Under the pieces are notes generated by a model. It did not search any database. It saw only the letters and a list, made by a program, of their open reading frames with translations, and was not told where the DNA came from. A program made the position numbers and the translations under genes. Shown here in pieces: positions 3,720 through 16,926 of a stretch of 31,063 nucleotides of DNA. The DNA is from a virus: positions 1-31,063 of IMG/VR virus record IMGVR_UViG_3300045020_000108, one strand, 5' to 3'. Positions within the stretch are counted from its first letter, which is position 1, and each line of letters starts with the position of its first letter.

Positions 3720-4003
3720 AGACTCCCAACATTAATGCGATCGCGCTGATTACGCTTCTGATGTCCGTCGTCCTGATGGTCTATCTATTCGCTGGGTCAC
3801 GCAATGATCCGAGCCTCAGAATTGCGGCTCTGGTAGCGGGCACCGGCCTTGTGTCGGCTCTGGCTGCGATCGCGTCCACCATTCTTACCGGCAAGGATTT
3901 GACGAAGGGGCGCGATCCTGCCGACATGCCGCCCAACACTGTCACAACCGATACGTCTACCGTGAAGGTGGGGCCAGTACCCCCGGACCCGAACCCGAAG
4001 TAG
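3716..4003 (+). CDS. Two-TM membrane protein, holin candidate
   Basis: 95 residues with two hydrophobic helices (about 8-27 and 35-57) separated by a short polar turn (GSRNDPS), then a basic stretch and a flexible C-terminal tail ending 'PVPPDPNPK'. Small two-TM proteins with a charged tail, next to a peptidoglycan-acting gene, are typical holin or antiholin candidates. It starts in an ATGA overlap with the proline-rich peptide and ends 7 nt before the next gene. No family signature fixes the role. Confidence 0.75.
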   Translation: MKTPNINAIALITLLMSVVLMVYLFAGSRNDPSLRIAALVAGTGLVSALAAIASTILTGKDLTKGRDPADMPPNTVTTDTSTVKVGPVPPDPNPK

Positions 4004-4775: not shown

Positions 4776-5141
4776 ATGTGGCAGTACATGCAGAGCACCG
4801 GCCATCTCATCGACCCTACCGGCGCCACGATCGGCACAGGCTATAGCGGCCGCGGCTCCGGGCTTAATTCGCCTGATGCGGAAGACCTGACCGACGTAGG
4901 CCCATGCCCGCGCGGATTGTGGACCATCGGCGCATTCTTTGACGATCCAGGCGGGAAGGGTCCGCTCGTATGCCATCTGACGCCACAGGCCGAGACGGAG
5001 ACGTTCGGGCGCTCAGGATTCATGATCCACGGAGATAATGCGCAGGCTAATCACACGGCTAGTGAGGGCTGTATCGTGCTCGCGCACGATCTACGCGCCG
5101 CTCTCGACGCGAGCGCGGACAGGCTGCTTGAGGTGATCTGA
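4776..5141 (+). CDS. L,D-transpeptidase-fold (Tlde1/DUF2778-like) cell-wall protein
   Basis: 121 residues, ribosome site GAGGAG at 4765-4770. The core shows 'GPCPRGLWTIG', then 'GFMIHGDN' and 'SEGCIVL'. This is the H-G-x-x ... S-x-G-C arrangement of L,D-transpeptidase-fold enzymes, with H85 and C99 as likely catalytic residues. The compact length and the 'GPxPxGxWTI' strand fit the Tlde1/DUF2778 branch. It would act on peptidoglycan in the periplasm, although no signal peptide is visible, as is usual for holin-dependent lysis proteins. Next to the holin candidate, it is the only visible wall-active gene here. Whether it cleaves or exchanges peptide cross-links cannot be told. Confidence 0.8.
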   Translation: MWQYMQSTGHLIDPTGATIGTGYSGRGSGLNSPDAEDLTDVGPCPRGLWTIGAFFDDPGGKGPLVCHLTPQAETETFGRSGFMIHGDNAQANHTASEGCIVLAHDLRAALDASADRLLEVI

Positions 5142-6793: not shown

Positions 6794-7159
6794 CTAGGAT
6801 GTTGTGCTGGATTGGAGTTTCCATCCTGAACCGGCACGGTCCGTCTCCCGTACCTCGATTGCCAATAGCCATAGTTCGCTAAGATTCTGTCGAATGTACT
6901 CGACGATGTTTTCGCAAGTCGGGTTTTCTAGGCCCGGAACGTCGTTGAGTGTCCGATGGTCCAGGCCCATGATTACCGGATCGGCGATGTCTTTGATTTC
7001 CGCATAATCAATAATCCAGCCAACCTCATTGACTTCGCCGGTTATTTCAAGGCGAATCTGGTAGCGGTGACCGTGCATGTTATGGCACTTATGATCTTTG
7101 GGAACCCGCGGTAGCCAGTGAGCGCAGTCGATTGAATACTCAAGGAACACGTACTGCAT
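6794..7159 (-). CDS. queD: 6-carboxy-5,6,7,8-tetrahydropterin synthase
   Basis: 121 residues, the usual QueD length. ATG at 7159 has GGAGG with 5-nt spacing; a TTG at 7171 is in frame but less likely. QueD converts 7,8-dihydroneopterin triphosphate to 6-carboxytetrahydropterin, an early step to preQ0. Visible residues: zinc ligands H14, H29, H31 ('HNMHGHRY'), catalytic C25, the D67-H68 pair ('GLDHRT') and E105 ('VRETDRAGSGW'), plus 'DYAEIKDI' and 'PTCENIVEYI'. All key residues are present, so it should be active. It overlaps the end of dpdA by 20 nt and is probably co-translated, pointing to DNA modification rather than tRNA queuosine. FolE, QueE and QueC are not in this window. Confidence 0.93.
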   Translation of the reverse strand: MQYVFLEYSIDCAHWLPRVPKDHKCHNMHGHRYQIRLEITGEVNEVGWIIDYAEIKDIADPVIMGLDHRTLNDVPGLENPTCENIVEYIRQNLSELWLLAIEVRETDRAGSGWKLQSSTTS

Positions 7160-7784
7160 GAATGCCTCCAAACATCTCGCTTTGTACGACCCGCTTACGC
7201 TGGCCGGTAGATTCCTCCAAATAGGCCCGAAGTCCGCGATATTGCACCTGATCTCCTCGCATCCATCCTGTGCCGTCTACGCTTTCAGCTCCGGCGTCAT
7301 GGCACTCCCAAAGACGCCTATAAGTGTTGACTCTGCCCACGTGAACACGCTTAAACTCCCGACACCATATGGGAACCGTCTTCCACTTCCACTCCGTGGA
7401 GCCTCCGACAAAAACCACACTCGCATCGTTCGGCACGTCTTTTGTGGTCATGCCGTCCTGGACTGCGAATGCAAGAGGCCACCCATACTTAGCGGCGCGT
7501 GAGGCGTACATTTCCCAACGGCGAAGCGTCCTAATCCGGTCCCCAACCACGTCAGGGATTAGACACCAAAGGGGATTCTGCCCACTCAGGTGAGCCCAAT
7601 ACAGCAACTCAAACCATCCCGACTCTTGCCAGTCGTCATCATGGCCGTATGCCCCATTGTCCAGTCCGTAGGGAAGAAACTCTTCTGGGCCACGCTGCGC
7701 TCCGGGGGAATAGAGATGCCCTATCTTCCCCTCAAATTTGCCTGCCAAGTAGCCGACCTTGACCCCGGTATTATTGGCAACCAT
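7140..7784 (-). CDS. dpdA: 7-deazaguanine DNA transglycosylase (DpdA family)
   Basis: 214 residues from ATG at 7784 (GTG 7787 and TTG 7793 are alternatives). DpdA is a TGT-like enzyme that swaps guanine in DNA for a 7-deazaguanine base. Diagnostic stretches in order: 'LDNGAY' (D42), 'LIPDVVGD' (78-82), 'AVQDG' (110), 'VFVGGSTEWK' (125-133), 'VHVGRVNTYRR' (147-157) and 'AESVDGT' (D170). D42 and D170 are candidate nucleophile/base-recognition aspartates by analogy with TGT. The short length and these blocks match phage DpdA rather than ~370-residue bacterial Tgt; the tRNA-binding zinc site of Tgt is missing. It is followed by queD and preceded by a coupled 10-codon ORF. The exact base inserted (preQ0, preQ1, dADG, dG+) cannot be read from sequence. 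Confidence 0.9.
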   Translation of the reverse strand: MVANNTGVKVGYLAGKFEGKIGHLYSPGAQRGPEEFLPYGLDNGAYGHDDDWQESGWFELLYWAHLSGQNPLWCLIPDVVGDRIRTLRRWEMYASRAAKYGWPLAFAVQDGMTTKDVPNDASVVFVGGSTEWKWKTVPIWCREFKRVHVGRVNTYRRLWECHDAGAESVDGTGWMRGDQVQYRGLRAYLEESTGQRKRVVQSEMFGGIHAVRVP

Positions 7785-7816
7785 CACGAGCAAATTGCAC
7801 CATTTTCGTCTGCCAC
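7784..7816 (-). CDS. 10-codon mini-ORF coupled to dpdA
   Basis: A textbook AGGAGG (plus-strand 7821-7826) sits 4 nt before GTG at 7816. The frame reads MADENGAICS and stops at TGA sharing one base with the dpdA ATG (TGATG at 7782-7786). The dpdA start itself has no good ribosome site. It could be a leader peptide setting dpdA translation by reinitiation, or the remnant of a longer N-terminus displaced by a frameshift. Coding status is inferred. Confidence 0.45.
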   Translation of the reverse strand: MADENGAICS

Positions 7817-16260: not shown

Positions 16261-16926
16261 TCATGGGCGAGAGAGGATTGACTCGGCGTAATCGGCTACG
16301 CAATCGGCCAGTTCGCGCGGGATGGTGGCGACTCGCGCTGTCGCCAGCTTGCGAGCTTTACTTACGCTGGATGCCGAGAGCATCGGATCAGTCTTTCTTA
16401 TCGCCTTTTTCTGTTCTGCGGTCATATCGCGAAATCGCGTGCCGTTGGGAACGCCGCATCCCTCTGTGCCGCCGGTAGCCAGCCTCATACCCTTTTTCAG
16501 ACCTTTTGGCAGGGAGGGCGGTACGCTGTTGCCCCATAAGTAGAAGCTGCCAGCGTGTCCCTGTGCGGGGCCGATGAACATCTGAGCCGCCCGCACGTTC
16601 TCCATGACAAAGGGAGCGCCAGCGAGGATGCAGAGAGATTTAGTGAAGTTGAATAGTTCGATCCCTTCGACGGGCCACTTGGGATTAGGGAAGAAGTGGC
16701 GCATGCCCCACACGGAGAATTTCTCGCAGGGGCTCGAGGCGCAAACGAAATCGAAATCGCTTACGATCGCGGGCGTGAGATTGAATACATTGCCCCTGAC
16801 GAACGTGCAGCCGCGCGGAACCTCTTCAGGGGGCGTTAGGTCTATGCCTATCACTTCCCAGCCGCGGGTAGCGAAAGCGCTTCCCCATCCGAAGCGGCCG
16901 CAGAACAGATCGAGCATTCTAAACAT
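16261..16926 (-). CDS. C5-cytosine DNA methyltransferase, short phage type
   Basis: 221 residues; typical restriction-associated C5 enzymes exceed 300. Motif I 'LDLFCGRFGWGSAF' (5-18), motif II 'VIGIDL' (25-30), motif IV 'SSPCEKFS' with catalytic C67, and motif VI 'ENV' (109-111) are all present. Downstream of 110 the sequence is divergent ('GSFYLWGNSVPPSLPKG'), and a large target-recognition domain is missing. It transfers a methyl group to cytosine in DNA; the target site cannot be read. It is the first gene of the leftward operon and is probably made early, so it may protect newly replicated phage DNA. Confidence 0.88.
   Translation of the reverse strand: MFRMLDLFCGRFGWGSAFATRGWEVIGIDLTPPEEVPRGCTFVRGNVFNLTPAIVSDFDFVCASSPCEKFSVWGMRHFFPNPKWPVEGIELFNFTKSLCILAGAPFVMENVRAAQMFIGPAQGHAGSFYLWGNSVPPSLPKGLKKGMRLATGGTEGCGVPNGTRFRDMTAEQKKAIRKTDPMLSASSVSKARKLATARVATIPRELADCVADYAESILSRP

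Follow-up and report, generated by a model that had tools for sequence, protein, structure and literature searches.

The locus raises the question of what use a virus has for two overlapping genes, one of which putatively encodes a short transglycosylase and the other a single enzyme of preQ0 synthesis, and by which route it obtained them. The window analysed here is the complete virus record IMGVR_UViG_3300045020_000108 (31,063 bp), which is linear and possibly incomplete; its other genes, according to Pfam and PHROG matches, include those for a terminase, a YqaJ exonuclease and an Erf-like annealing protein. On the minus strand a gene for a DpdA-like protein with the predicted fold of the tRNA-guanine transglycosylases (TGT) (7140..7784; 214 aa from ATG; a TTG start at 7793 would give 217 aa) precedes queD, predicted to encode a 6-carboxytetrahydropterin synthase (6794..7159, minus strand; 121 aa from ATG). 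The ORF coordinates give an overlap of 20 nt (7140..7159, minus strand) that is identical in the related viral records G001, G002 and G007, and the queD ribosome-binding site GGAGG (7165..7169, minus strand), which lies within the DpdA-like gene, is unchanged across four copies of the pair. The adjacency, overlap, coordinates and shared operon described in the initial annotation are borne out by these minus-strand ORFs. Both genes are under strong purifying selection (dN/dS 0.03–0.07 between copies), which indicates that both stay functional while moving, and since homologues of the short protein were furthermore detected in at least 263 viral contigs (IMG/VR profile scan) the pair is not a chance arrangement.

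The identity of the 7159–6794 product as QueD is hardly in doubt. The protein matches the Pfam PTPS family (1.2e-24) and the structures of E. coli QueD (5.9e-29), scores 90.5 bits on the NCBIfam equivalog model TIGR03367 and thereby passes its cut-off of 89.25, and keeps the equivalents of the E. coli zinc ligands H16, H31 and H33 as well as of the catalytic residues C27, D70, H71 and E110, in agreement with the earlier statement that all zinc and catalytic residues are present. The catalytic set is likewise intact in all full-length QueDs that are linked to members of this DpdA-like family. In the phage collection a bacterial QueD (a Salmonella record) reaches 44% and the QueDs of Arthrobacter phages ~31–36%. 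As the window QueD is closer to bacterial than to cultured-phage QueDs, it was probably acquired from a bacterium.

None of the Pfam, NCBIfam and PADLOC models matches the 214-aa partner, which speaks against reading it as a DNA-modifying enzyme, and its match to PHROG 15826 (6e-31) leads to a family without known function. A search of the PDB with a profile of the family alignment returned a lone match, a methyltransferase, that was dismissed as chance. The AlphaFold model of the protein, based on an alignment of 43 relatives (pLDDT 89, pTM 0.86), had a single Foldseek match in the PDB below 1e-3, namely 7ui4, the DNA preQ0 insertase DpdA. Among the 1000 best Foldseek chains aligned with VIA-align the top 50 rows were all TGT (Z 13.2–13.7), and the best superposition covered 199 of the 214 residues (Z 13.7, rmsd 3.4). 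Judging from the model, the protein almost certainly adopts the TGT/DpdA transglycosylase fold. Alignments of 43 (A2) and 14 (A4) sequences show no variation across the short family at seven residues, D42, D78, Q109, G128, H148, R151 and D170, and the statement of the initial annotation on diagnostic residue blocks is correct. The invariant residues appear in the order of TGT D102/D156/Q203/G230/D280, a correspondence of motif order and not of superposed coordinates. By this order D170 (codon 7275..7277, minus strand), at the D280 position, would be the catalytic nucleophile, and D42 (codon 7659..7661, minus strand), within the LDNGA motif, would take the place of D102.

The name DpdA given in the initial annotation holds for a partner with the transglycosylase fold, as the predicted structure and its best PDB match indicate, but not in the sense of the canonical phage enzyme. 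With 214 aa the protein does not reach the canonical length of ~300 aa including a C-terminal region, and in the phages Sonali, phiG7 and R29Z a short relative occurs together with a separate DpdA of 296–316 aa that is encoded among folE, queC, queD and in part queE genes. The tblastn matches of the short protein do not include the phages 9g, CAjan, Rosebush, nt-1 and 7-11. Due to its length, the separate coexistence and the missing sequence matches, canonical DpdA was rejected as the identity of the 214-aa protein. An hhalign comparison of the short family with the DpdA of the three phages pairs LDNGAY with LDSGAF, PDVVGD with LDGIGD and VGG with IGG, and its borderline score (E 2.9e-4, probability 40%) counts against the reading that we prefer. 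The short family is treated as a separate branch of the TGT superfamily, set apart from canonical DpdA, and may coincide with one of the further DpdA subfamilies (DpdA3, DpdA4) reported in the 2023 literature. Short relatives are labelled "DpdA-like tRNA-guanine transglycosylase" by SEA-PHAGES. StevieRay gp54, Sonali gp81, Aoka gp40 and ReqiPine5 gp03 belong to the same family (~31-34% identity) and share its invariant residues but, unlike the window pair, have no adjacent queD.

In Sonali, phiG7 and R29Z the short protein may not be the inserting enzyme, which argues against the preferred reading there. Their gene content would suit a short protein that serves as an accessory or alternative partner of full DpdA, comparable to the inactive QTRT2 of the eukaryotic TGT, and that represents a remnant or has another role elsewhere. 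However, the active-site aspartates are invariant, selection is strong, and no canonical DpdA was detected in the flanks (up to 8 kb per side) of about 80 IMG/VR loci with the short one, and such a partner role seems unlikely.

The substrate of the short transglycosylase is probably DNA. Its fold agrees with that of tRNA-guanine transglycosylases no less well than with that of DpdA, and a boost of Q has been suggested for phages that carry preQ0 genes without DpdA (PMC6884629), as would be expected if the enzyme acted on host or phage tRNA, or removed the base, and QueD raised the queuosine content of host tRNA for the benefit of translation. Such a role in translation is nevertheless rather unlikely, given that the protein of ~214 aa lacks the additional regions found in TGT chains of ~360-380 aa, that the transposon cargo of the same lineage places relatives beside DNA methyltransferases, that several relatives have a clamp-like C-terminal motif and that the SEA-PHAGES phages carry the short protein among genes of DNA metabolism. 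An attachment of deazaguanine to protein, as by Cap9/Cap10 of type IV CBASS, would be consistent with the appearance of Cap10 (9ntn) among the Foldseek matches (E 0.012) and with the queC-like genes that adjoin some relatives. Yet the Cap10 match is no better than those of many unrelated TIM barrels, a PADLOC scan of the two genes of the pair gave no match, and the usual neighbour is QueD instead of a QueC-like ligase, all of which makes a protein target highly improbable.

The genomic context of the family was analysed in the best 80 of the at least 263 IMG/VR relatives and in 7 loci from bacterial assemblies. At 97% identity the short family forms 53 clusters, and a dedicated preQ0 gene is adjacent or close in 34 of them (queD in 22, queC in 10, queE in 6, folE in none). 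The remaining 19 have none of these genes nearby, which is a point against the preferred reading. Of 37 whole records with a member of the family, 22 encode QueD, five a radical SAM protein, two QueC and none FolE; no further pathway gene is present in 20 of the 22 QueD records, among them contigs of 50, 59 and 61 kb. Genes for folE, queC and radical-SAM proteins (queE) were not detected in the 31,063-bp window, a possibly incomplete contig, nor were folE, queC and queE in G001 (43 kb) or G002 (48 kb). The claim that queD alone accompanies the partner in the window is supported, and the combination of a short DpdA with QueD only is a recurrent arrangement, found in about 20 viral records, and not an oddity.

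Distant relatives of the short protein occur on plasmids, namely pSE5369-VIM of Pseudomonas aeruginosa (L239 4321-5184) and 176 others, mostly Pseudomonas megaplasmids, where they are annotated as hypothetical; the one locus examined (L239) has no adjoining preQ0 gene, and this branch, too, speaks against the main reading. Genes resembling PAPS reductases (PP-loop) lie beside or near the short DpdA in ReqiPine5 (L034 5941-7572), in R6L (L037 5881-8386) and at L064 2047-2940. These phages have no nearby preQ0 genes, and the PP-loop neighbours possibly reflect a different modification chemistry.

Since the window record is linear and may be a fragment, queE and queC may lie elsewhere in the phage, and full gene sets are known from many characterised phages (PMC6884629). 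A complete preQ0 pathway whose missing genes fall outside the contig is, however, very unlikely in view of the records of 43, 48, 50, 59 and 61 kb that contain the pair and have no folE, queC or queE. The reliance on the host for the remaining steps that had been suggested initially is probable, because relatives of 43–61 kb carry only QueD. Bacteria require FolE for folate regardless, and the observation that phages re-add dedicated steps of the pathway but not FolE would fit a borrowing from the host.

According to the scheme that we favour, FolE of the host would provide dihydroneopterin triphosphate, a precursor derived from GTP, which the phage QueD would convert to CPH4 in the step committing the precursor to the deazaguanine branch, and QueE and QueC of the host would complete preQ0. 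The short DpdA-like protein would then swap guanine in the phage DNA for the predicted deazaguanine base, perhaps at the clamp, and the modified DNA would presumably block restriction enzymes. A precedent for host supply is provided by DpdA of phage 9g, which alone in E. coli put dPreQ0 into plasmid DNA from the precursor made by the host (PMC6884629). The mycobacteriophage Orion, which has DpdA only and infects a host without the pathway, forms a contrary precedent, as no modification was found (PMC6884629), and a supply of preQ0 by the host of the window phage is an assumption.

The canonical systems of the Escherichia phages 9g and CAjan and of the Mycobacterium phage Rosebush (Hutinet et al. 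2019, PMC6884629) likewise encode a transglycosylase of the TGT fold together with QueD, with an expected anti-restriction insertion of 7-deazaguanine, but combine a DpdA of ~300 aa with folE, queD, queE and queC, whereas the window has a protein of ~214 aa and queD alone. Hutinet et al. distinguished phages with full sets, with preQ0 sets, with dpdA only and with synthesis genes only (PMC6884629), and a group with dpdA plus queD only is absent from these classes. Their Group 3 phages depend on a precursor made by the host, as proposed for the window pair, but differ in that the window phage itself provides the committing enzyme QueD. No description of the dpdA–queD pair alone was found in the literature searched.

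The pair is a cassette that moves horizontally among unrelated phages. When the window was compared by blastn with G001 and G002, its closest long records, the only stretch of similar DNA was 6820–7796 (77%; minus strand), which is taken as the extent of the mobile cassette, and at the protein level the matches to G001 outside the cassette were weak or few. G001 and G007 have 1,081 bp in common at 99.6% and nothing else. The best terminase PHROGs differ as well, being PHROG 2 in the window, PHROG 979 in G001 and PHROG 38 in G007. The descent of the window copy from the same cassette is deduced from the 77% identity across just the two genes.

Several further features were noted around these cassettes. 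In G007 (L004) the cassette is located between head-morphogenesis and head-protease genes of the opposite strand and is flanked by a perfect 31-bp direct repeat (3864-3894 and 4998-5028), which is too long compared with the 8-bp target duplication of the transposon family described below. The near-identical phages (>99%) G008 (L003 6788) and G001 (L025 12678) have the cassette and its dpdA-side flank in common and part ways a few bases past the queD-side inverted repeat. An 18-bp tandem repeat array lies near the cassette of G001 (L025 14008-14367). On the minus strand of the window (16261-16926) a DNA methyltransferase-like gene (PHROG 363/757), homologous to a gene of G001, represents a second likely DNA-modification gene of the phage.

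The cassette lineage very probably originated as a passenger of an IS1595-family transposon; this context is the most surprising part of the analysis and was absent from the initial annotation. The cassette of G002 is enclosed by 23-bp inverted repeats, GGGAATTATATACTTGACTTCCG and CGTAAGTCAAGTATATAATTCCC, that are 96% complementary (L028:4026-4048/5162-5184). The queD-side repeat is retained in G001, G007 and G008, and similarity among the four sequences breaks off no more than a few bases from the end of this repeat, as expected for a transposon end. An exact 18-mer of the repeat was detected in at least 120 IMG/VR stretches; in 65 of 118 loci a facing repeat pair is present 0.28–3.5 kb apart, with an exact 8-bp target duplication at 48 of the 65 paired elements. 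An operator or stoperator role of the repeats was also considered and rejected: in G001, G002 and G007 the motif is confined to the ends of the cassette, and elsewhere it forms paired transposon ends with target duplications.

The transposase of this lineage is of the IS1595 type (DDE_Tnp_IS1595, 5.7e-47) and is followed in many elements by a small ORF (…LDAITDVVLAYRPKPKTKPAKKRKRR…), which G002 and G007 likewise have ahead of their DpdA-like gene. The full transposase is gone from G002, where only its last codons (TYERLTA-stop) are left, fused to the repeat, and 135 bp of G002 share 81.5% identity with the transposase-deleted element L130 (E 3.7e-32). Taken together, the repeats, the ORF and the leftover codons suggest that the cassette was the passenger of an IS1595-family element from which the transposase was deleted. 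G002 thereby resembles IS1595-family transposons and mobile insertion cassettes without transposase in having the pair enclosed by the inverted repeats typical of the lineage, with the small accessory ORF and the last transposase codons, but differs from them in the lack of a transposase and of a target duplication, and in passengers that are predicted to make a hypermodified base.

An 8-bp duplication was looked for at the G002 cassette and is absent, the flanks being different, and in the window neither the small accessory ORF of the lineage nor, at up to 5 mismatches, the inverted-repeat motif was detected. The missing repeats of the window and the missing duplication of G002 count against the proposed origin of the cassette; the window copy has lost its transposon ends. 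As no transposase or inverted repeats were found near other short-DpdA loci, the transposon origin covers this cassette lineage and not the whole short family. The motif is also absent from 396 Acidobacteriota genomes, among which the terminase gave one weak match.

Other elements of the lineage carry DNA-modification genes as well. A DNA methyltransferase (N6/N4, C5, D12 or PHROG) is encoded by 17 of 54 distinct elements, and an 18th, L130, was judged alike by eye; this count of 17–18 is not to be read as an enrichment over phage genes in general. Some of these elements add a restriction enzyme of the MvaI/BcnI or Eco29kI type, or Vsr. Further passengers are one NADAR-domain gene, located on an IS1595-type element of a viral contig (L125:10979-11599), and one PAPS reductase-like gene. 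The modification and restriction-modification elements in viral contigs comprise L128, L150, L161, L167, L168, L217, L227, L129, L230, L137, L164, L200, L206, L207, L149, L194 and L159; they have ends GGGAATTATATACTTGAC and 8-bp target duplications, and some are without transposase. In the literature searched no description of IS1595 elements with modification genes in phages was found.

The C-terminus of the short protein offers a possible link to replication. The tails of the family often end in Q..[LMI]F, with QSEMF in the window (residues 201-205; codons 7170..7184, minus strand) and QADLF, QPQLF, QISLF or QMTLF in others, which resembles the consensus QL[SD]LF of bacterial sliding-clamp peptides. 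The pattern is present in 11 of 42 non-redundant tails, shuffles gave 0.44 (highest value 5 among 2000), and none of the protein bodies contains it; it was picked post hoc after 14 sequences, beyond which it occurs in 4 of ~29. The QSEMF codons overlap conserved sequence that surrounds the queD ribosome-binding site, from which part of the conservation of the window motif may stem. Clamp-binding transposases have been reported (PMC4549789). A tethering of the short transglycosylase to the replication clamp is, from the motif count, no more than tentatively suggested. It is equally doubtful, if conceivable, that the IS1595-type lineage resides in phage genomes and, together with derivatives that lack a transposase, shuttles modification and restriction genes from one unrelated phage to another, with dpdA–queD as a minimal passenger system of one precursor enzyme whose clamp-tethered transglycosylase would modify the DNA behind the fork.

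With moderate confidence we regard the pair as a compact, host-assisted module for the insertion of 7-deazaguanine into phage DNA, which would have entered the phage as a mobile cassette of a lineage that was once an IS1595-family passenger, the copy in the window having lost the transposon ends. The kind of system, 7-deazaguanine DNA modification, is already known; the cassette form is new. Phage 7-deazaguanine systems known before consist of clusters of at least five genes or of a lone dpdA. If the reading is true, a two-gene, host-borrowing unit of ~1 kb that moves between phages would explain the spread of this DNA camouflage, and a transglycosylase of about two-thirds of the usual size would offer a particularly compact means of producing deazaguanine DNA for tests in E. 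coli. The carrier transposon family, with methyltransferase or restriction passengers in about a third of its distinct elements, would then deserve attention as a general vehicle.
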